From Actinomyces sp. 432 (GTDB lineage Bacteria; Actinomycetota; Actinomycetes; Actinomycetales; Actinomycetaceae), in assembly GCF_009930875.1 (NCBI RefSeq), contig NZ_CP025249.1, positions 2,728,001 through 2,792,000 on the forward strand: a DNA stretch of 64,000 bases, written 5' to 3'. The translations under genes and the position numbers were made by a program. Positions 9,558 to 20,069 of this stretch are shown in pieces. The notes under the pieces are model-generated. The model saw nothing but the letters and a program-made list of their open reading frames with translations, made no database searches and was not told the origin of the DNA. Positions within the stretch are counted from its first letter, which is position 1, and the number at the start of each line of letters is the position of its first letter.

Positions 9558-12500
9558 TCAGCGTCGCCGCCACAGGCTCGCGGGCAGCAGTCGGGCGCGC
9601 AGGCGTCGACGCAGGGACGTGGCGCGGGCCAGGCTCGCCGTCACGGTGCGCAGTCCACTGGCCAAGCGCTCCCGGTCGCCGACCGTACCGTCGGCCCGGC
9701 CCCCCGGAGCGGGTGCCAGCGCCCCCTCCCCGAAGGCCTCGGCGACGGCGGCTCCCGCCAACTCCTCCAGGTCTCGCCCGGCGGCCTCCAGGCCGGGTAG
9801 GGCGGCCAGATACTCAGCCAGCGCCTCGTGCGTGCGCGCCCGCGGCCCCCGGCCGGCACCACCGGGCCGCCGCCCGGCTCCCCCGGCCGCGCCAACGCGT
9901 CCAGGTGGCGTCCACAGCCCCAGATCGGTGGCGGTGTCGCGCAGCTCCTGCCAGGCTGCGGCGGCGGGTCTGGATCCGTTCCGGATGCGGCCCAGTCGGC
10001 GTCGACGCCGCCCGGAGCGCACCAGCGCCGGACCGGCGAGCAGCAGCGCTACGAGCACGGCCGCAGCCAGCTGCGGCGCGCGGACTCCCGGCCGGGTGGC
10101 GTCCCCCGCGCCGGCTGCACCACTGGAACCACTGGGGTCGGGCGCATTGCTGGTCGCGACCACCGTGGGCGCGGGCGCGGCCGACGCCGACGCGGTCGGT
10201 GTCTCGGTCCCCGCCGCGGTGGGTGAGGGCTGCGGGTCCGCCCCGGTGTCGGCCCGCCGCCCGGCCCCGCCCGGCGTGGGCTCGAAGGCCACCCAGCCGA
10301 CGTCGTCGAACCACACCTCGGGCCAGGCATGCAGTTCCTGACCGGACACGGGGGTCGCCGCCCCGTCGGCGCGGGAGGCGTAGCCGATGGCGATGCGGGT
10401 GGGCAGGCCCAGGCTGCGGGCCATGAGCGTGAAGGCGGCGGCGTAGTGGACGCAGTAGCCGTGGCGGTCGGTGAGGAAGTCATTGACGGTGTCCACGGGC
10501 ATGGTCCCGCCGCTCCCGGAGAAGCCACCGGGAGCGGACTCGTCGTACACGAAGTCACCGCTGTGGAACCAGGCGGCCAGCGCGGCGGCCTGGGCGGTCG
10601 GGGGCGCGTCGGTGCCGTCGAGCCCCACGGCCCCTACCACTTCCCGGGCAGTCAGGGCGATGCCCGCCGAGCCGCGGGGCGTGACCGTGTAGGCGGCCAG
10701 TTCCTGGGGATCCGCGGCGGCGGCCTCGTAGGGCGGGAGGACCTGCGGGGTGCCGTCCGGGCCGGCGACGGCGTTCCACCCCCGTACCGTGTAACGGTTC
10801 CCCCTGGTGGCACCGGCGCCCCGGGCGACGACGGTGGAGGTGCCGGGCACCCACGCCCAGTTCGAGACCGCGAGCGCGTCATCGTTCGCATCCGTCGTTA
10901 TCAGGGCGGTCGACTGGGCCAGCGGCAGGCGTGCAGAGGCTAGGTTCTGGATGCCTATGTGAGTCTCCGGCAGGTCGGCGCCGCCGGAGCGCACCTCGGC
11001 GGCGCTGACTCCGGCGGCCACGAGCGCCCCTCCGGCCGTGAGCGCACCGCCGCCGACGGGCGCTACCAGGCTGCCTGCGCTCGCGGGTCCCGGATCTTCC
11101 AGGGGCTCCCAGGCATCGCCGTCGAGATCTCGGATGACGGCGAGGGGGAAGCGCAGGGAGGTGCCGGTCGGCACGTCGGAGGTGTACTCAAATACGGTTG
11201 CGGCAGAGCCGCGCACCAGGTCCTGGTCCAGGGTGAGCGTGGTATCCGGAACGGAGAGGCCGGCCACGCCCGCGCCGCTCACGTTCCAGCTCCATGCACG
11301 CACCGGCACGGCCGGAGCGAGGGACACCGCGACGCCGGCCGTGCCGACCGCCAGGGCGGTCACGACCGCCACGCCGGCCAGTTTCCCGAGCGCGCGCATC
11401 AGGGCGCCGTATGCGACCAGCGGCGCGGCGCGTACTGCTGCGTGGGGCGGCTTCGCCTCCCAACCGTGCTGGTTGCGCGTGCCCGCGGCGGGCACGGGCC
11501 CCGCTGTGAGGATGAGCGCGAGCACGCCCGCCCCGGCAGCCAGTACGACGTCGTCGGCGGGCCGCTGCCCCAGGACGATGCCGGGGGCCAGCAGCGCGGC
11601 GGCCGGGATCAGCCCGGTGGCGCCGCAGCCATCGCCGCCGCCCGCGCTCGAAAGCGCGCACACCCAGGCCAGCAGCCAAGTGAACAGGCACAGGGCGAAG
11701 CCGAGCGCGCCGCCGGTGTCCAACGGGGCGATGCCGTCGCACAGCATGCTGCTGACCTCGCGCAGCTGGGTCGAGGGGGAGGCGAGCCAGGACTCCACCT
11801 GGCCGGTGCCGCGCCAGCCCCACCACAGCACCCCGGATCCGGCGAGCAGGCCCAGGGCACAGGCGAGTCCCGCCCGCTGGGGCCGGGCTGTGCGCACCAG
11901 GGCGGGGAGCAGCAGGGCGACGGCGGCAACGGCCAGGCCGCGGTCGGCCCAGGGCGCCGGGGTCAGCAGCGGTGCCAGCACAGTGGCGGCCAGGTGCCAC
12001 AAGCCGACGGTGATGAGCCCGGCTGCCAGCGGCTGCCAGCGGGCGGTGCGCAGGCGCGGCCGACTAGTGGGCGCGTCCTGCGGCGCCCTCAGGCCGGCGC
12101 GTGCAGGGGGCGAGGCGGCCGCCGCATCCGTGGCCGCACTGGCGCCGGCCTGCGCGTCCGCCACCAGCACCAGGGTCCCGGGCGGGGGCTGCGGCTCGGC
12201 CGGGGCACCAGTGATGAAGACATCGGCCTCGGCACCGGGCCCGGCGTCGGCCGCACGGGTGCCGGGGCGTGGGCCGCCGGGAGGGAGGTCGGCGGCGTCG
12301 TCCTCCGGCAGGCTGCTCATCTCAACCGTGGCGAGGCGTCGCAGCAGGGCGGTGGAGTGCGCCGCGGTGGCGCGGTGGCGCTCGGTGCCCAGGTGCAGCT
12401 CGACGTCGTGCCCGGCGCGCGCCCACGCCTCGATCAGCCCGGTGGCCGTGCTGACGGCGCCCTCGAAGGCGGCTGCGGCGCCACCCGGTGCCTCAGCATG

Positions 12501-13370
12501 CGCCGTGTAGGCGCAGGCGCGCAGGTCTAGCCGCAGGCGGCGCAGGCCTCGGCCCTCGTGCTCGCGGTCAATGACGATGAGCCGTCCGGTGCGCGCGGAC
12601 TGGCGCCAGTGGACGGATCCGAGCCAGTCGCCTGGCCGGTATTCGCGCAGGTTGCCGAGTTGCCGGCCGGAGGTACCGGGGTGCGAACGGGACGGGGCAG
12701 CCGCGTCCACGCCGCCTGCCGTGTCAGCTGTGCCGGTGGCGGCGGCCTCAGCCGGCGGTGGCAGTGGTCGGGGCAGGACCAGCAGGCTGCCGTCCAGGCG
12801 CATGGGAATGCGGGCGCGTGCGAGCCCGAGTGGGTCGTAGCAGGTGAGCGCGGGCGCGCTTACGGTGAGCGGTCCGCGCCGGTGCGGACGGTAGGAGATC
12901 GCGCAGCCACCCTGCGCCACCGGGACCGTGAGCCGAGCACCGGCGACGTGCCAGGTCACCCACAGGGGTACCCACCGGGGCAGCCGGGTGGCGACGGCCA
13001 GCTGCCAGACCGCATCCTGGCCGACGTGGACCTCACCTACCTCACCGGGTCCGCTCAGCCGCGCTCGCGGCCTTGCGGCGAGAGCCATCAGCCAGCCTGC
13101 CACAAGGGCGGCTCCGGCCGTTGCCGTGAGAAGGAGACCCAGGTCGCGCATCAGGCTCAGGCCGGTGAGGCAGCCACCGAGTACCAGGGCCGCCCCGAGC
13201 ACGAGTACCTGCCAGCCGGTCGTTGACGGAGCCGCCCAGGGGACGAGCCGGCGCGTGGGCTGTCCGTCGGCGGCTGCGGCTCGGGTCACGCGCAGGCGCC
13301 CACTGGGGCGGTGGCACCCGGAGGGTTGCGGTGTGGCGCCGCCCGCGTCTAGTGGCATCGGCTCAGTCAC
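9558..13370 (-). CDS. DUF58 protein fused to TgpA-like transglutaminase membrane protein
   Basis: 1270 residues in one open frame. Part 1 (1 to about 440): two membrane spans near 50-95, then a DUF58 domain with its signature REYRPGDWLGSVHW at about 240. Part 2 (about 450-1270): a block of some eight membrane spans, an extracytoplasmic region, and a transglutaminase core with Cys in HGYCVHYAAAF (about 971), His in ELHAWPEVWF (about 1013) and a following Asp in DDVGW. It ends with another span and a basic Arg-rich tail. In most actinobacteria these are two neighbouring genes after moxR. The GTG start overlaps the moxR stop by 8 bases. Its role is unknown; a part in envelope protein processing or crosslinking is inferred. 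Confidence 0.88.
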   Translation of the reverse strand: MTEPMPLDAGGATPQPSGCHRPSGRLRVTRAAAADGQPTRRLVPWAAPSTTGWQVLVLGAALVLGGCLTGLSLMRDLGLLLTATAGAALVAGWLMALAARPRARLSGPGEVGEVHVGQDAVWQLAVATRLPRWVPLWVTWHVAGARLTVPVAQGGCAISYRPHRRGPLTVSAPALTCYDPLGLARARIPMRLDGSLLVLPRPLPPPAEAAATGTADTAGGVDAAAPSRSHPGTSGRQLGNLREYRPGDWLGSVHWRQSARTGRLIVIDREHEGRGLRRLRLDLRACAYTAHAEAPGGAAAAFEGAVSTATGLIEAWARAGHDVELHLGTERHRATAAHSTALLRRLATVEMSSLPEDDAADLPPGGPRPGTRAADAGPGAEADVFITGAPAEPQPPPGTLVLVADAQAGASAATDAAAASPPARAGLRAPQDAPTSRPRLRTARWQPLAAGLITVGLWHLAATVLAPLLTPAPWADRGLAVAAVALLLPALVRTARPQRAGLACALGLLAGSGVLWWGWRGTGQVESWLASPSTQLREVSSMLCDGIAPLDTGGALGFALCLFTWLLAWVCALSSAGGGDGCGATGLIPAAALLAPGIVLGQRPADDVVLAAGAGVLALILTAGPVPAAGTRNQHGWEAKPPHAAVRAAPLVAYGALMRALGKLAGVAVVTALAVGTAGVAVSLAPAVPVRAWSWNVSGAGVAGLSVPDTTLTLDQDLVRGSAATVFEYTSDVPTGTSLRFPLAVIRDLDGDAWEPLEDPGPASAGSLVAPVGGGALTAGGALVAAGVSAAEVRSGGADLPETHIGIQNLASARLPLAQSTALITTDANDDALAVSNWAWVPGTSTVVARGAGATRGNRYTVRGWNAVAGPDGTPQVLPPYEAAAADPQELAAYTVTPRGSAGIALTAREVVGAVGLDGTDAPPTAQAAALAAWFHSGDFVYDESAPGGFSGSGGTMPVDTVNDFLTDRHGYCVHYAAAFTLMARSLGLPTRIAIGYASRADGAATPVSGQELHAWPEVWFDDVGWVAFEPTPGGAGRRADTGADPQPSPTAAGTETPTASASAAPAPTVVATSNAPDPSGSSGAAGAGDATRPGVRAPQLAAAVLVALLLAGPALVRSGRRRRRLGRIRNGSRPAAAAWQELRDTATDLGLWTPPGRVGAAGGAGRRPGGAGRGPRARTHEALAEYLAALPGLEAAGRDLEELAGAAVAEAFGEGALAPAPGGRADGTVGDRERLASGLRTVTASLARATSLRRRLRARLLPASLWRRR

Positions 13371-14364
13371 CCGCCGGTACGGGCGTGCTCGCGAGGATGC
13401 GCCACAGGGCTTGGGTGGAGGCGGCGAGCGCGTCGGCAGCCGAGGCGGGGCATCCGGCCGGGATGAGCCGGTGGGCGAGCACGTGGACGGCGGTGCGGGC
13501 GACGTCGTCGGGCGAGACGAAGTTGCGTCCGGCCATGGCGGCGCGGGCGCGGGCGACGGCGGCCAGGTGCAGGCCGGCGCGGGGGCTCGCGCCCAGGGCG
13601 ATGGCCTCGTCGCTGCGGGTGGCGGATACCAGGGCGACGATGTAGCGGGCGACGGCGGGGGCCAGGTGCAGGGAGGCGACGGTGGTGCGCGCCGCGCGGG
13701 CGTCGTGCTCGGAGGCGATGGGGGCGAGGTCGGCGAGCGGGTCGGCGCCGCCGCGGGCGAGCAGCATGGCGGCCTCGGCGCCGGCGTCGGGGTAGCCCAT
13801 GGTCAGGCGGGTCATGAAGCGGTCGCGCTGGGCCTCCGGCAGGGCGAAGGTGCCCTCCATCTCCAGGGGATTCTGGGTGGCGACGACGATGAACGGGTCG
13901 GGCAGGGGCAGGGTCCGCCCCTCGACGCTGACCTGCCCCTCCCCCATGGCCTCCAGCAGGGCGGACTGGGTGCGCGGGGTGGCCCGGTTGATCTCGTCGG
14001 CGACGACGACGCCGGCGAACACCGGGCCGGGGTGGAAGCGGAACTCGCGGGTGGACTGGTCGTAGACACTGACCCCGGTGACGTCTGCGGGCAGGAGGTC
14101 GGCGGTGAACTGGATGCGGGCCGAGCTCAGGTCCAGGCAGCGCGCGAGTGCCAGGGCCAGGGTGGTCTTGGCGACGCCGGGCACGTCCTCGATCAAGAGG
14201 TGGCCGCCGGCCAGGAAGGTGGCCAGGAGGGTGTCGATCGCCTCGGTCTTGCCGACGACGACGCGCTGCATTCGGTCTCGCAGTGCGCCGGCGAGTTCGC
14301 GCAGGGCGGCGGGGGCCATCGGTGCGTGCGCGTTTGCGGCGCCGCGGCTATCAGCGCTGGTCAT
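13363..14364 (-). CDS. MoxR-family AAA+ ATPase
   Basis: 333 residues. Walker A is EDVPGVAKTTLA near residue 60, Walker B is VVADEINRA near residue 123, and sensor 1 is VVATQNPLEMEGTFALPEAQ, all characteristic of MoxR. MoxR ATPases act as chaperone-like partners for VWA- or DUF58-containing proteins; here the partner is the fused protein encoded immediately downstream, with overlapping reading frames. The start at 14364 has a weak ribosome-binding site, and an internal ATG (residue 16) is an alternative. Confidence 0.9.
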   Translation of the reverse strand: MTSADSRGAANAHAPMAPAALRELAGALRDRMQRVVVGKTEAIDTLLATFLAGGHLLIEDVPGVAKTTLALALARCLDLSSARIQFTADLLPADVTGVSVYDQSTREFRFHPGPVFAGVVVADEINRATPRTQSALLEAMGEGQVSVEGRTLPLPDPFIVVATQNPLEMEGTFALPEAQRDRFMTRLTMGYPDAGAEAAMLLARGGADPLADLAPIASEHDARAARTTVASLHLAPAVARYIVALVSATRSDEAIALGASPRAGLHLAAVARARAAMAGRNFVSPDDVARTAVHVLAHRLIPAGCPASAADALAASTQALWRILASTPVPAGD

Positions 14365-14483: not shown

Positions 14484-16973
14484 TCATGCTCCGCCCGCAT
14501 CGTGGCCCGCTTCAAACGCCTTTACTGCCGGCACACCGTCGCGGAGGTTAACCCCGGCAAGATCAGGGTCATCTGTAAGCCAACCGACGAACTGTCCCAT
14601 ATGGTCCGGGTCGGACAGCAGCGCCGCGGCGTAGAGGTAGGAGTTTCCGGCGGCATCCCGTTTCATCCACGCATCGAAGCCGGTGTAGGCCTTGTCCTCA
14701 ACGCCCTCATAGACGCCGGCCGGCAGAAGTCCGCGCTCATCGAGCTTGACATATGCCTCCACCAGGAAATGCCGCCTCACCGCCTCCGACATGCCGTAGT
14801 CCTGAACGTCACTCCAGCCGGACGCGCCGGCAACGGGTTTCTGCAGCGCAGCCACCAGATAGGACTGCGCAATGTTTCGCGCCGTACCGCCCCAGGCGGG
14901 CCCGGCGGCGCCGGCAACGGTAGCGGCGGTGGAGTACACCCCGTCGTCGAAAGCATCGAGGAGCATCTGGTTCGTCGCATCCAACTGCTCGCCATCATCG
15001 TCGCGCCCCTTCTCCGCAGCTCCCTGAATGTAACCGAGTAGACGGCCATCGGGCTCAAGTTTCTGAACAATCAGGGCACTCGCAGCCTTCAGACTCGAGT
15101 ATCCCGAGTCCTCCGAGTCATCAGAGTCTGCAGGCAGCGTATCCAGCGCATCGTCGAGGCGCAGTGAGGTGTATCGGCCCGCCGCGGCGGAGACGGTCTG
15201 CAGCGCGACATCATCCTTTAGTGTCTCCTGCAGCAACTTCTTCACTTCGTCCGGATGGTAGCCCTCCCAACCGGCGGGCAGGCTGCCGTTGAATGCCGAG
15301 TCCTTTCTCGAATTCTCAGTTTCATTAGCGGACTCGTCTACCTCCTGCATGGAATTGGCCAGTACCACGGCCGCGTTCTGCCGCGAAGTGTCCGTCCACA
15401 GGCCATCCTTGCGCCCGGCCATGTCAACCACCGCCTGCTCCGTGATCCACGCGGCACGCTCGTCCTTCGTACCCGTCGTCAACTGACGATGCTCCGAAGC
15501 GCCCGCAATGGCCGCCGTAAGCGCCTCAAAACTGGTCGAATCCCAGTCACGTCCCTTAAGCCATTCCCAGGTAGTACCATCAACCTCCACGGTCTGCTCG
15601 GTGGCGCGATCATCAACCGGCGGCGCCAGGAAGTCCAAAGCCGCATCAGGCTGCCGCCCCATCGCAGTCAGAATCCCGGCCATCGGATCCCAATCACCCA
15701 CGGCGCCTTCCGGAGATGGCGTCTTCATCCTCTGCGACTGCCACGCCGGCAGGCCATCGCCAGTCTGCTCGTGCGCCGTCGCTGCAGACACCAGGTCCTG
15801 GAGGAAGTACTTGTTGAATACTCCGCCCGCGCTCGCCATCGGCTCACCGTGGGACAATATGTTCGTTGCCGAGCGGTTGGCTCCCCGCAGCAGCAGATTG
15901 AAGCCTAGCGGCATGTAGTAGGACTGGCTCTCGTCCGCGAGCAGCTCACTGAGTATCTTCGCGTAGTCCGTGCGGTGCTGGGGAGTCCAGGCCGAGGAGT
16001 TCGTCGCAGTGCCGAGGCAGATCGATAGCGTCGCCTGGGCCGACAGCCACGCGTCTTCGGTCTGCTGCCAACGGGTCACGTATTCGGCGTCGGGGTCATT
16101 CGGATCGTAAGCAGGCAGGTTTTCGGTCTGCTGCTGCCTCTGCTGGTTGATCGTGTAGGCCAGTTCCATCATCCCCTCTGGGCCCATGGCGTCGGCAAAG
16201 GCCGCGGCATAGACCCCATCGTCCTTGTGGTCGGCCAACAATCCGTTAATCAGTTCCAGCAGCTCATCGGGCTTGGCGTTCTTCGCCTTCTCCGCATCGC
16301 TTCGAGCCCGGTCCGATCCCTCCGTCCCTGCCGTGACAGAGGCAGTCGTCGCGGCGGTGGCAGAGGCAGACGGCTCGGGACTGGGAGTGCCGGTGGCAGG
16401 ATCGTCCCGGTTGCGACCGGGGTCCGCTGTACGCGATGCCACCCCATCCAGCACCTGTGGCGCGTACTTGATCACCAACTCCTCCAACGCCGCAACCGTC
16501 GACTCATCAGCATCCTCCGCAACTACCGTGTACATGGCAAACCCGGCACGACCTTCCAACCAATACGCATAAGCATTCGGGTGCTTTGGGTACCGCCCAA
16601 GATAGGAGAATACACGCGCATCCGCACCCGGGACCTCACGCCCCTCACCCCCAGCAATCGCCTCCAACGTGGTAAACGCATTATTACCACCACGCCCGAA
16701 CGCCACCCATGAATCCGCCGTACCGTGCGCGGCCAATACGGCACGCTCACCCTCAATGCTACAATAGAACACTCCGTCACTACCCTCCTCGACCTCCGTC
16801 ACACGACCCACAATAGGGTGTACATCCTCCTCGGCAATCAGCCCACAGTATGGGCCCGCGATCGAATCATCAGCGCAGCCACTCACGCAACCTAACGGCG
16901 CAACCACTAGCAGCGCCACCACAACAACACGGAGTGACGGCACGCGGCTGAACTTGAGTCCCATCATTGTCAC
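14484..16973 (-). CDS. Lipoprotein-DUF6571-like fusion protein, unknown function
   Basis: 829 residues. The N-terminus is a lipoprotein signal (VVVVALLVVAPLGC, lipobox VSGC before ADDS). Residues 30-190 are nearly the same as the whole preceding lipoprotein gene. A Ser/Thr/Pro/Ala-rich linker (about 190-225) leads at DAEKAKNAKPDELLELINGL into a domain of about 600 residues. That domain matches the 701-residue gene two upstream and looks like DUF6571 from memory (DPMAGILTAMGRQPDAALDF). The domain is mostly helical, without catalytic motifs I recognise. The GTG start overlaps the preceding stop (GTGA). It is the last gene of a four-gene unit, and its base composition is visibly lower in GC than the flanks. 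Confidence 0.75.
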   Translation of the reverse strand: MTMMGLKFSRVPSLRVVVVALLVVAPLGCVSGCADDSIAGPYCGLIAEEDVHPIVGRVTEVEEGSDGVFYCSIEGERAVLAAHGTADSWVAFGRGGNNAFTTLEAIAGGEGREVPGADARVFSYLGRYPKHPNAYAYWLEGRAGFAMYTVVAEDADESTVAALEELVIKYAPQVLDGVASRTADPGRNRDDPATGTPSPEPSASATAATTASVTAGTEGSDRARSDAEKAKNAKPDELLELINGLLADHKDDGVYAAAFADAMGPEGMMELAYTINQQRQQQTENLPAYDPNDPDAEYVTRWQQTEDAWLSAQATLSICLGTATNSSAWTPQHRTDYAKILSELLADESQSYYMPLGFNLLLRGANRSATNILSHGEPMASAGGVFNKYFLQDLVSAATAHEQTGDGLPAWQSQRMKTPSPEGAVGDWDPMAGILTAMGRQPDAALDFLAPPVDDRATEQTVEVDGTTWEWLKGRDWDSTSFEALTAAIAGASEHRQLTTGTKDERAAWITEQAVVDMAGRKDGLWTDTSRQNAAVVLANSMQEVDESANETENSRKDSAFNGSLPAGWEGYHPDEVKKLLQETLKDDVALQTVSAAAGRYTSLRLDDALDTLPADSDDSEDSGYSSLKAASALIVQKLEPDGRLLGYIQGAAEKGRDDDGEQLDATNQMLLDAFDDGVYSTAATVAGAAGPAWGGTARNIAQSYLVAALQKPVAGASGWSDVQDYGMSEAVRRHFLVEAYVKLDERGLLPAGVYEGVEDKAYTGFDAWMKRDAAGNSYLYAAALLSDPDHMGQFVGWLTDDPDLAGVNLRDGVPAVKAFEAGHDAGGA

Positions 16974-17638
16974 TGACCTGGCGATCCGGTGGACGTTGAG
17001 TCAGCATCGCTGGACATGTCTGCAGCCTGGGAAGCAGACGACTCGGCACCAGGCGCACCAGTCGCCGGATCATTCCAGTTAGGGCCTGGGTCCTCCGAAC
17101 GCGAAGCCACGCCATCCAAGACCTGTGGTGCGTACTTGATCACCAACTCCTCCAACGCCGCAACCGTCGACTCATCAGCATCCTCGGCAACCACCGTGTA
17201 CATGGCAAACCCGGCACGCCCCTCCAACCAATAAGCATAAGCATTCGGGTGCACAGGATTTCCCGTAGACAGGTAAGAGAATACGCGCGCTTCCGTACCC
17301 GGGATCTCACGCCCCTCACCCCCAGTAATCGCCTCCAACGTCGTAAACGCGTTGTCACCATCCTGCCCAAACACAACCCACGAGTCGCTAGTGCCGTGCA
17401 CCGCCAACACAGCACGCTCACCCTCGATAGTACAATATGACAGCCTGCCACCCCCCTCCTCAACCTCCGTCACACGACCCACTATCGGAGTCACGTCCTC
17501 CTCGGCAATCAGCCCACAGTAAGGGCCCGTGATCGAATCATCGGCACAACCCCCGAAGCACCCCGTACACGCCAGAATTAGCAAAACCCAAACTACACGC
17601 GCCTTGACACCCACCTCACGTTGTATTTGCCCCATCAT
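16970..17638 (-). CDS. Small lipoprotein, paralogue of the fusion protein's N-terminal domain
   Basis: 222 residues: signal VVWVLLILACTGCFGGC, then ADDSITGPYCGLIAEEDVTP, IVGRVTEVEEGG, GYAYWLEGRAGFAMYTVV-like core (here NAYAYWLEGRAGFAMYTVVA) and ALEELVIKYAPQVLDGV, ending in a low-complexity Ser/Ala/Asp tail. Apart from the tail it matches residues 1-195 of the next gene. I do not recognise the family; it looks like an extracytoplasmic lipid-anchored domain of about 150 residues with conserved cysteines (GPYCGLI, YC-I-EGERAVLA). The start ATG overlaps the upstream stop (ATGA) and its own stop overlaps the next start, so the genes are translationally coupled. Confidence 0.75.
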   Translation of the reverse strand: MMGQIQREVGVKARVVWVLLILACTGCFGGCADDSITGPYCGLIAEEDVTPIVGRVTEVEEGGGRLSYCTIEGERAVLAVHGTSDSWVVFGQDGDNAFTTLEAITGGEGREIPGTEARVFSYLSTGNPVHPNAYAYWLEGRAGFAMYTVVAEDADESTVAALEELVIKYAPQVLDGVASRSEDPGPNWNDPATGAPGAESSASQAADMSSDADSTSTGSPGQ

Positions 17639-19740
17639 CGCCTCCCACTCTTAGCGCCTGCTTCGAAACCATTCGACCCCATCAATGCCTCACCCAGAAC
17701 AGAGTCAAGCTCCCAATCATCTTCAATCCACCCCATGAACTGCTCGATGCTTTCCGGATTGGACAGCAACGCCTCACCGTCAATATGCAAGTCTCCCTGA
17801 TCGTCGCGCTTCATCCAGGAATCCTCGTAATAGTTGTTCTCGTAGTCCAAGTATGCCTCGGGCGGCAAATACCCGCGCTCATCAAGCTTGACATACGATT
17901 CCGCTAATATTCTCCTCATGGCTTGCTCCTGCATACTCACCGCCTCGTCCTGCGCCTGCTGCGCATTTGATGGCAAGCAGTCCCCCACCATATCGAGCGC
18001 ATACGACTCCGCGATACTTAGCGCCTTTCCTGCCACAGCGGACTGTGGTCCCGGTATGAAGCTCAGCCCTTTACCAAAGGCGTTTAGGATCATCTGATTG
18101 GTCGCGTCTTTCTCGGCTGCGGCGTCGCCGCGCCCCTTCTCCGCGGCACCCTGAATATATCCGATAAGGCGGCCATTACTGTACCCCGTTTGAGACGCCC
18201 GCTTATACGCCTCCTCCCCACTCGCGTCTTCCGGCAGAGCATCCAATGCGCTATCCATGCGCGCAGACGCGTACCTGCCTGCAGCGTCGGAGACGGTCTG
18301 CAAGGCGACGTCATCCTTGAGCGTCTCCTGCAACAATGCGCGCACCTCCTCGTCGTGCTTCTCATCCCAGCCAGCGGGCATCGCAGCATTGAATTGCGAT
18401 CTCCGTGAATTTCTTTGAACGTCGCCTGCGGCCTCATCCACCTCCTGCATGGAGTTGGCCAGTACCACGGCCGCGTTCTGCCGCGAAGTGTCCGTCCACA
18501 GGCCATCCTTACGCCCGGCCATGTCAACCACCGCCTGCTCCGTGATCCACGCAGCACGCTCGTCCTTCGTACCCGTCGTCAACTGACGATGCTCCGAAGC
18601 ACCGGCCACGGCCGCCGTAAGCGCCTCAAAACTGGTCGAATCCCAGTCACGCCCCTTAAGCCACTCCCAGGTAGTACCATCAACCTCCACGGTCTGCTCG
18701 GTGGCACGGTCATCAACCGGCGGCGCCAGGAAGTCCAAAGCCGCATCAGGCTGCCGCCCCATCGCAGTCAGAATCCCGGCCATCGGATCCCAATCACCCA
18801 TGCTCCCCTCAGGCGAAGAGGTCTTCAGCATCATCTCCCACCACGCCGGGTAACCTTCGCTGGTCTTCTCATGCGCCTGTATGGCATTCCCCAGATCCTG
18901 CAGGAAGTACTTGTTGAACACTCCGCCGGCCTGCACCGCCTCGCCGTCAACCTCGGCCGTATTCGCTGCGGTTCGGTTCGCGCCTTCCAGCAGCAGGTTG
19001 AAGCCTAGCGGCATGTAGTAGGGCTGATCTTCGTCCGTGACGAGTTCCGCCAGCTCCTCCGCATACTCCTTGCGGTGCTGGGGCGTCCAGGCAGAGGAGT
19101 TCGTCGCCGTGCCGAAGCAGATCGACAGCGTCGCCTGAGCGGACAACCATGCTTCGTTGGCCCTATCCCAGCGAGTGCCGTAGTCAGTGTCGGGATCCTT
19201 CGGATCGTAGTCCGGAAAGTTCTCAAGCTGGTACTGCCGGTGCTTGTCAATCGTGTAGGCCAGATCGGCCATGCCCTCAGGTCCCATGGCGTCGGCGAAG
19301 GCCGCAGCATAGACCTCATCATCCTGATGGTCTGCTACCGATCCATTCATCAGGTCCAGCAGCTCATCGGGATCTGCGTTCTTCGCCTTCTCCGCGTCGA
19401 TCTCCGCCTGGACTACCGAACTGAGATCGTCCGAAGAGTTGATCGTCACGGTGTCCGGCAAATTGTAGGTGATGACGCCGTTAGCGTCCATGCCCGCAAT
19501 TCCCGACTCATTCAACCGCACGATCTCGTCCTTGCAGGACTCAATCTCATCTGCTCTGGCCCTCAGGTTATCAATGGCGGTCAACGCGTCCGTGCTGAAG
19601 TCAGTGTCAGGCACGGTGACATCGGCGTTGTTAAGCTCGAGATTGATTGAGCTCCGAGCGCCTTCCGCGTCGGTGGCAACCTTACGGATTTGAGCGATGG
19701 CGGTTTCCAGCTTCTCTGCGTTGAGGGATACCTTTGTCAT
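17635..19740 (-). CDS. DUF6571-like large protein with WXG/LXG-type helical N-terminus, unknown function
   Basis: 701 residues, starting at the ATG at 19740, which has GGGGAGGAAC 4 bases upstream; a 16-residue longer frame from 19788 has no such site. Residues 1-110 are helical (SLNAEKLETAIAQIRKVATD...DNLRARADEIESCKDEIVRL), resembling the N-termini of type VII secretion substrates. From residue about 115 (DAEKAKNADPDELLDLMNGS) it is collinear with the fusion protein. A 360-bp stretch at 18441-18800 is about 97% identical to 15341-15700 while flanking parts diverge much more. No signal peptide or membrane span is evident. The call to DUF6571 is from memory of the family pattern. It lacks recognised catalytic motifs. 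Confidence 0.72.
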   Translation of the reverse strand: MTKVSLNAEKLETAIAQIRKVATDAEGARSSINLELNNADVTVPDTDFSTDALTAIDNLRARADEIESCKDEIVRLNESGIAGMDANGVITYNLPDTVTINSSDDLSSVVQAEIDAEKAKNADPDELLDLMNGSVADHQDDEVYAAAFADAMGPEGMADLAYTIDKHRQYQLENFPDYDPKDPDTDYGTRWDRANEAWLSAQATLSICFGTATNSSAWTPQHRKEYAEELAELVTDEDQPYYMPLGFNLLLEGANRTAANTAEVDGEAVQAGGVFNKYFLQDLGNAIQAHEKTSEGYPAWWEMMLKTSSPEGSMGDWDPMAGILTAMGRQPDAALDFLAPPVDDRATEQTVEVDGTTWEWLKGRDWDSTSFEALTAAVAGASEHRQLTTGTKDERAAWITEQAVVDMAGRKDGLWTDTSRQNAAVVLANSMQEVDEAAGDVQRNSRRSQFNAAMPAGWDEKHDEEVRALLQETLKDDVALQTVSDAAGRYASARMDSALDALPEDASGEEAYKRASQTGYSNGRLIGYIQGAAEKGRGDAAAEKDATNQMILNAFGKGLSFIPGPQSAVAGKALSIAESYALDMVGDCLPSNAQQAQDEAVSMQEQAMRRILAESYVKLDERGYLPPEAYLDYENNYYEDSWMKRDDQGDLHIDGEALLSNPESIEQFMGWIEDDWELDSVLGEALMGSNGFEAGAKSGRR

Positions 19741-19799
19741 TATTGTTCCTCCCCTTCCTATGCAGCAACCAGGCGGAATTCCCGACACCCCTATGGGCG

Positions 19800-20069
19800 T
19801 CAGCTATCCTCCTCGCCGCTTTCTGCGTTGGCTATTGCCGTCGCAAGATCCTCACTGAGCGCCGCAAACACACCAATCAGCGCGTCAATCTCGGCCTTCG
19901 TCTCCTCGGACTCTTCATCCGCCAGCGGCCCCTCCCAGGTGTCGGACGCATTCACCCAGCCATGCAGCCCCTCCACAACGGTGCAGGCGTACGGATTCAC
20001 CAGGTCCGTCTCGCGGTTCTTGCGATCGACATATTCCTTCAGCTCGGTGAGCTTTTCCTTCTCGGACAT
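19800..20069 (-). CDS. Small WXG-like protein heading the DUF6571 cassette
   Basis: 89 residues with a strong GGAGGAAGAG site before its ATG. It is acidic and predicted helical on both sides of a WEG at residues 45-47, close to the place where WXG100 proteins carry their WxG turn (here SDTWEGPLADEE). It contains one Cys, which is uncommon for WXG100. It precedes the 701-residue gene by 59 bp in the same direction. A role as a secretion partner or chaperone of the larger protein is inference; it could equally be an unrelated small helical protein. Confidence 0.55.
   Translation of the reverse strand: MSEKEKLTELKEYVDRKNRETDLVNPYACTVVEGLHGWVNASDTWEGPLADEESEETKAEIDALIGVFAALSEDLATAIANAESGEEDS

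Follow-up and report, generated by a model that had tools for sequence, protein, structure and literature searches.

A DUF6571 gene cassette of Actinomyces with a free protein, a candidate type VII-type substrate, and its predicted anchored twin

The cassette and its conservation

Four genes on the minus strand of a 64,000-nucleotide window from Actinomyces sp. 432 (NZ_CP025249.1; all positions are those of this window) encode, in the order in which they are read, proteins of 89, 701, 222 and 829 amino acids (aa), as an earlier note on this DNA had listed them (Table 1). The first is a small protein with a W-x-G (WxG) motif, the second is a free DUF6571 protein, the third is a predicted lipoprotein and the fourth is a lipoprotein fused to a DUF6571 body. 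A survey for such fused and unfused pairs indicated that the anchored, N-terminally truncated twin of the free protein recurs and is not peculiar to this strain. Here, we describe the cassette and its relatives and discuss whether they may represent an effector with immunity derived from itself.

Both large proteins matched PF20211 (270.2 bits for the 701-aa and 131.9 bits for the 829-aa protein; cut-off 27), which bears out their assignment to DUF6571, and the match spans residues 231-762 of the longer protein. The 89-aa and 222-aa proteins matched no Pfam families at E ≤ 1. Overlaps between genes had been noted and are present at 17635-17638 (ATGA) and 16970-16973 (GTGA), but the 89-aa and 701-aa genes are separated by a gap of 59 nucleotides. 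The 829-aa gene has a GTG start without a clear ribosome site and an in-frame ATG two codons later. Using a home-made rule, we identified the expected lipobox signals after a hydrophobic signal in the 222-aa protein (CFGG|C) and the 829-aa protein (CVSG|C, with predicted lipidation of the cysteine at residue 33), while neither a lipobox nor an N-terminal hydrophobic signal was seen in the 701-aa protein, in line with the claim that it lacks a secretion signal. The 829-aa protein had been described as equal to the lipoprotein joined to the body of the 701-aa protein. The join is indeed there, at residue 226 and opposite residue 115 of the 701-aa protein, but the parts have diverged: the lipoprotein part shares 72% identity with the 222-aa protein and the two large proteins are 56-57% identical overall, with one stretch of 120 residues that is 94-98% identical in DNA. 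Because the body joins opposite residue 115, the 829-aa twin has no counterpart of the N-terminal hairpin modelled for the free protein. The guanine-plus-cytosine content of the cassette is 0.605, lower than in the adjoining 10 kb on each side (0.734 and 0.682), as had been observed.

A. glycerinitolerans and A. ruminis have the same four-gene cassette in the same interval, bounded by ppdK and a MoxR gene. The cassette is neither a chance arrangement nor specific to the strain. The interval also contains a gene for a protein of 176-179 aa, which separates the cassette from ppdK in the window but from the MoxR gene in the other two species. The free lipoprotein gene is present twice in A. glycerinitolerans, and in the assembly of A. 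ruminis both the free and the fused gene are interrupted. Immediately downstream of the cassette in the window (9558-14364) are the MoxR ATPase gene and a gene for a large membrane protein that by eye is transglutaminase-like, a pair that is also found downstream of the cassette in A. glycerinitolerans.

At least four further DUF6571 loci are present in the genome of the window. Across the taxonomic family, DUF6571 was found in 30 of 213 genomes, 27 of which belong to the same genus, and an even sample of the class yielded mostly weak matches in 52 of 394 genomes. Searches of the family proteins matched no enzyme family. For the comparisons below, we fetched 73 stretches of DNA, nearly all around DUF6571 matches, and called genes in 76 loci with a home-made caller; anchors were assigned by a lipobox and hydrophobicity rule of our own. 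Neighbours repeatedly seen beside the cassettes were a DUF6318-like lipoprotein and a protein with IPVAEIQTLNT at or near its end (L010:4736-6591, L042:12674-14218, L044:2295-3824 and L061:10984-12552); the one such lipoprotein tested gave an E of 0.0006, below the cut-off.

Table 1. Genes and segments of the DUF6571 cassette, in positions of the 64,000-nucleotide window.
Feature	Position	Strand	Basis
89-aa WxG-motif partner (W45-E46-G47)	19800..20069	minus	open reading frame
701-aa free DUF6571 protein, proposed type VII-type substrate	17635..19740	minus	PF20211 270 bits, AlphaFold
N-terminal helical hairpin, 701-aa residues 8-78	19507..19719	minus	AlphaFold, helices 8-38 and 48-78
Homogenised segment, 701-aa residues 317-436	18433..18792	minus	DNA identity to 829-aa gene
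Most hydrophobic 19-mer of the C-terminal region, 701-aa residues 559-577	18010..18066	minus	mean Kyte-Doolittle 0.89, weak
222-aa lipoprotein	16970..17638	minus	lipobox CFGG|C
829-aa lipoprotein-DUF6571 fusion, anchored twin	14484..16973	minus	PF20211 132 bits, lipobox
Counterpart of the homogenised segment in the 829-aa gene	15333..15692	minus	coordinates from sequence

The small partner and the link to type VII-type export

The pairing of DUF6571 with a small gene recurs across the sampled loci outside this strain: such a gene is located directly upstream of 56 of the 63 N-terminally complete DUF6571 genes, and 53 of the 56 small proteins contain W-x-[GS]. The more specific pattern W.[GS].{0,3}A was found in 51 of these 56 partners as compared to 52 of 364 other small genes, with 8.3 expected from shuffled partners, and the tryptophan is invariant in all 43 aligned cassette partners. 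In the AlphaFold model of the 89-aa protein, which is of modest confidence (pLDDT 72.7, pTM 0.56), helices span residues 3-20, 33-39 and 50-85. The suggestion of a WXG-like hairpin agrees with this modelled helix-loop-helix, in which W45-x-G47 falls in the loop before the last helix, and as modelled the protein would fit the description of WXG100 proteins as having about 100 residues and W-x-G between two helices. The model aligns with EsxA/EsxB structures over 72-79 residues, and unrelated helical proteins score equal or higher.

Profile searches of the cassette supported DUF6571 and left the small proteins unmatched by the WXG100 family of Pfam. PF06013 gave no match to the 89-aa protein at E ≤ 1. 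For the 43 partners, 24 families are listed, PF06013 not being one of them; one partner matched the related WXG100_2 (E 0.041). A profile comparison with eight WXG100 proteins yielded an E of 0.008 with a probability of 4.8%. Many partners (for example L042:12193-12546) end in an acidic stretch and a tryptophan, D-x-x-x-A-x-W, possibly an export tail; this ending is not present in the 89-aa protein.

The helical hairpin suspected at the N-terminus of the 701-aa protein is present in its AlphaFold model (pLDDT 79.8, pTM 0.79; residues 559-577 are partly of low confidence), and the hairpin itself contains no WxG. Among 24 DUF6571 genes of distant relatives, 19 have a small gene upstream and nine, in an unselected count, have WxG in their own N-terminus. 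Five of eight distant N-termini picked for this motif matched PPE (PF00823; best E 1.3e-5), and four of the same eight matched WXG100 (best E 1.6e-4). Profile comparisons of the Actinomyces DUF6571 N-termini were insignificant. None of the four window proteins matched an LXG family at E ≤ 1.

The earlier note had pointed to secretion ATPases as possible neighbours, and EssC-like genes are indeed linked to DUF6571. Among the EssC-like matches listed, the distance to a DUF6571 match is at most 3 kb in 11 of 29 genomes, at most 20 kb in 17 (these 11 included), 21-22 kb in two and at least 130 kb in six; in the remaining four, no EssC-like match is listed on the DUF6571 contig. This analysis covered 29 of the 30 genomes (G021 was left out) and 30 matches chosen by hand, leaving out canonical EccC frames. 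The ATPase in the genome of the window is called only EssC-like since its TIGR03928 score of 535.9 bits is lower than the cut-off of 778.4. Because of the small WxG gene, the EssC-like linkage and the WxG motif in the N-termini of some relatives, we consider a type VII-type substrate the most likely identity of the free DUF6571 protein, its export being predicted from motif, model and linkage.

Two other gene arrangements were observed in these loci. At L042-L043 (G000:C1:1168000-1206000), an EssC-like ATPase gene of 1546 aa is preceded by what we take to be Tad/Flp pilus genes and has a WXG100-like gene, a DUF6571 cassette and lipoproteins on its other side. Similar layouts in relatives (L045-L047, L052-L054 and L061) may represent a pilus-plus-EssC hybrid locus. 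A second type VII-like locus, L114 (G000:C1:168000-187900), contains an EccC gene of 1333 aa, a 435-aa gene with an N-terminus that by eye is EccD-like, small genes and an 808-aa protein.

Anchored twins, their hydrophobic stretch and the lipoproteins

Among 42 N-terminally truncated DUF6571 hits, 16 were flagged as broken, with the missing part in another frame. According to the rule, the other 26 start with a lipobox (13), a membrane or signal segment (7) or neither (6). The flag is fallible: L089_1026, in which lipobox and hydrophobic stretch are kept, was flagged and is therefore outside the rule-based stretch comparison below. On a tree of the shared body, the hydrophobic stretch excluded, the anchored label changes 10 times (9-10 in bootstraps); this tree contained 21 anchored and 50 free rows after two long branches and four fragments had been dropped. 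A single clade of anchored copies was rejected (p-AU 0.0002). Not every label change is a separate gain, and part of the pattern could be mimicked by gene conversion. In a tree from which one row was dropped, an anchored copy is often grouped with its cassette's own free copy, and the window pair is an example. In another genus (G062, L110:5991-16559), one free protein of 896 aa with an N-terminal F-x-G motif precedes four lipoprotein twins that stand in tandem and carry a DUF6571 body; such arrays comprise about four or five twins.

We estimated the ratio of nonsynonymous to synonymous substitutions (dN/dS) between this genome and A. glycerinitolerans to about 0.21 for the free gene and about 0.23 for the anchored gene, values low enough to indicate that both genes are maintained. 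We give next to no credence to the idea that the twins are decaying duplicates without function. The 16 broken hits and the short fragments among the others would be expected under such decay, but 20 of the 26 unflagged copies start with a lipobox or a membrane segment, twins recur on the tree, the dN/dS of the window pair is low and the cassette has been kept in three species, though interrupted in the A. ruminis assembly.

Within the window pair, divergence is far from uniform. In residues 317-436, windows of 40 codons are 94-98% identical in DNA between the free and the anchored gene, as compared to 84-93% and 85-88% between these genes and their respective A. glycerinitolerans orthologues. 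Around the hydrophobic stretch, the free and anchored genes are 43-46% identical while the anchored orthologues are 82% identical. The C-terminal tail is homogenised in two other cassette types (82-98% as compared to 44-73% in other windows, with 30% in one short N-terminal window), and in G062 the free protein and its twins have near-identical sequence in parts of this tail, so that each of the four cassette types examined has a homogenised segment. Such segments, together with arrays of about four or five twins, might suggest a store of variation in which tandem twins donate sequence to the exported protein by gene conversion or are themselves variable surface antigens. We regard this as highly improbable, given that homogenisation makes the copies more alike, not more different, that an anchor signal is kept by 20 of 26 unbroken copies and that the window twin has a dN/dS of only about 0.23.

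The most hydrophobic 19 residues fall in one C-terminal region in 44 of 52 free proteins. We compared these 52 with 24 of 25 hand-picked N-truncated copies, one cut by a contig end having been dropped; two of the hand-picked copies, L106_1738 and L106_4117, start below the cut-off of the rule. The median hydrophobicity of the stretch is 1.41 in the free proteins as compared to 0.77 in the N-truncated copies, and the stretch is deleted in none of the former and in 11 of the latter, while a control region showed no difference (0.77 and 0.76). A rule-based comparison included 18 of 20 copies, omitting L090_3 (contig end) and L061_15158 (a short piece). In this set, the stretch is deleted in nine of 11 lipid-anchored copies (median 0.49), one of these, L072_9989, being a piece of 203 aa whose lipobox is weak.

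Loss of the stretch is also where an alternative role in surface assembly falls short. If the exported DUF6571 protein were a subunit of the surface or matrix, the twins could be its docking bases or caps, and this would account for a body modelled as a helical-repeat scaffold, for the homogenised segment shared by twins and free protein, for several twins in tandem and for the hydrophobic stretch kept by the membrane-segment-anchored twins. It leaves unexplained the deletions in nine of 11 lipid-anchored twins and the unrelated lipoproteins found at the same place in other cassettes, and we consider it rather unlikely.

Of 63 DUF6571 genes, 30 have a lipoprotein gene within the three genes that follow, as compared to 34 of 332 control genes, taken as other genes of at least 300 aa. 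The 222-aa protein showed a remote hhalign match to the DUF3558-like lipoproteins of other cassettes (E 3.6e-4, probability 37%, 34 columns); DUF3558 itself was matched by one of 11 cassette lipoproteins (E 0.0025) and the 222-aa protein matched nothing in Pfam. A TilA-type DUF576 identity of the latter was rejected, as no Pfam family was found at E ≤ 1. Immunity of a conventional kind, with protection by the DUF3558-like lipoprotein and DUF6571 twins as secondary products of duplication, would be in keeping with the frequency of lipoproteins in this closer set and with the remote match of the window lipoprotein. Likewise, 10 of the 24 distant DUF6571 genes are preceded by a small gene and followed by a lipoprotein, and no twin was noticed in these short loci. 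The recurrence of twins across the tree and the purifying selection on the window twin argue against this explanation, which appears distinctly unlikely.

Interpretation and comparison with known systems

Of the readings considered, we lean towards the cassette encoding an effector with self-derived immunity, in which defanged twins anchored in the envelope act as decoys, although we stop short of giving it even chances; export, toxicity, binding and immunity are all inferred. A decoy or dominant-negative role fits best because the anchored copy is maintained, recurrent, matched to the free protein in one domain, devoid of the hairpin and often devoid of the hydrophobic stretch. The loss of this stretch in lipid-anchored copies favours a decoy, although the twin may instead be an anchored receptor or assembly partner. 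In such a system, the 89-aa WxG protein and the hairpin of the 701-aa protein would together form the signal for an EssC-like, type VII-type exporter, as motif, model and linkage suggest. Once outside, the free protein may act, perhaps in oligomeric form, on the membranes of other cells via its C-terminal hydrophobic stretch. The lipobox-bearing 222-aa lipoprotein and 829-aa fusion would be held on the membrane of the producer. With its matching body or C-terminal domain kept, the export hairpin absent and the hydrophobic stretch deleted or altered, the twin could capture the incoming free protein or occupy its binding site, and so stop insertion.

Several observations weigh against this interpretation. 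None of the seven copies with a membrane or signal segment as anchor has the stretch deleted, and their median is 1.25 as compared to 1.41 in free proteins (p 0.49). The deletions in lipid-anchored copies probably reflect about three independent events, as inferred from the tree, and the p-values for the stretch are overstated because the copies are related. The window pair is itself a weak case, with hydrophobicities of 0.89 in the free and 0.70 in the anchored protein, the stretch being altered and not deleted. Glycine zippers, defined as (G/A/S)xxxGxxxG or GxxxGxxx(G/S/T), were found in 20 of 52 free C-terminal stretches, as compared to 14.1 from shuffles, and the window protein is not among the 20. 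Since the DUF6571 body is modelled as a helical repeat, it would fit a binding scaffold as well as a toxin. In addition, 15 of the 24 distant DUF6571 genes have no N-terminal WxG, the home-made rule found no lipoprotein in the next three genes of 33 of the 63 cassettes, and the EssC-like gene in the genome of the window is about 1.5 Mb away from the cassette.

More tentatively still, the effector family may repeatedly make immunity from itself: copies would lose the export domain, gain an anchor, in the lipid-anchored cases mostly lose the hydrophobic stretch, and stay matched through a homogenised domain. This would amount to a general dominant-negative twin immunity for type VII-type effectors. 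If true, immunity has repeatedly been obtained by anchoring and defanging the gene of the effector itself and not via an unrelated inhibitor, which would show how new effector-immunity pairs can start. The analysis suggests that DUF6571 is probably the large substrate in a type VII-like module for export, found in several families of the class.

No paper naming DUF6571 was found in a search that excluded most subscription journals and bioRxiv, and the string pf20211 appeared only in fields that are unrelated by title. Judged by titles and the openings of abstracts, the matches listed for type VII systems of Actinomyces and for truncated-toxin lipoprotein immunity included no such system, and in the same literature no paper was found for DUF3558 with type VII. 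The consulted portions of the TslA/TilA and EsxX/ExiCD descriptions (PMC10730906, PMC12744356) contain no truncated toxin copy acting as an immunity protein.

As observed, modelled or proposed for the genes described here, WXG100 and PPE substrates (PF06013, PF00823) have WxG near a hairpin turn, combine a small partner with a large substrate and often have an EssC/EccC-type ATPase nearby; they differ in that our small proteins miss the WXG100 model of Pfam and the 701-aa hairpin contains no WxG. EsxX, as portrayed in the consulted part of PMC12744356, has an N-terminal helical export domain and a hydrophobic stretch near the C-terminus, as we propose for DUF6571. EsxX, TelE and TspA are membrane-depolarising type VII toxins. 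Glycine zippers are the hallmark of known toxins of this kind, whereas DUF6571 has neither a clear enrichment of these nor an LXG match. ExiCD provides envelope immunity against a secreted toxin and may be likened to the anchored twins, but according to the same portion of that source ExiCD belong to the polytopic membrane proteins whereas ExiAB are soluble proteins of the DUF5085 family, and neither are truncated toxin copies, unlike the twins.

In the TslA-TlaA1/TlaA2-TilA system of Staphylococcus aureus, as far as covered by the consulted part of PMC10730906, small helical partners, a large type VII substrate and a lipoprotein are clustered as they are here, and immunity lipoprotein families likewise vary in copy number. 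TslA combines a C-terminal export domain with a lipase domain, while DUF6571 gave no enzyme match. In the same part of that description, TilA is a DUF576 lipoprotein and is not presented as a copy of the toxin, whereas the anchored protein of the Actinomyces cassette is a truncated copy of the protein proposed to be exported.

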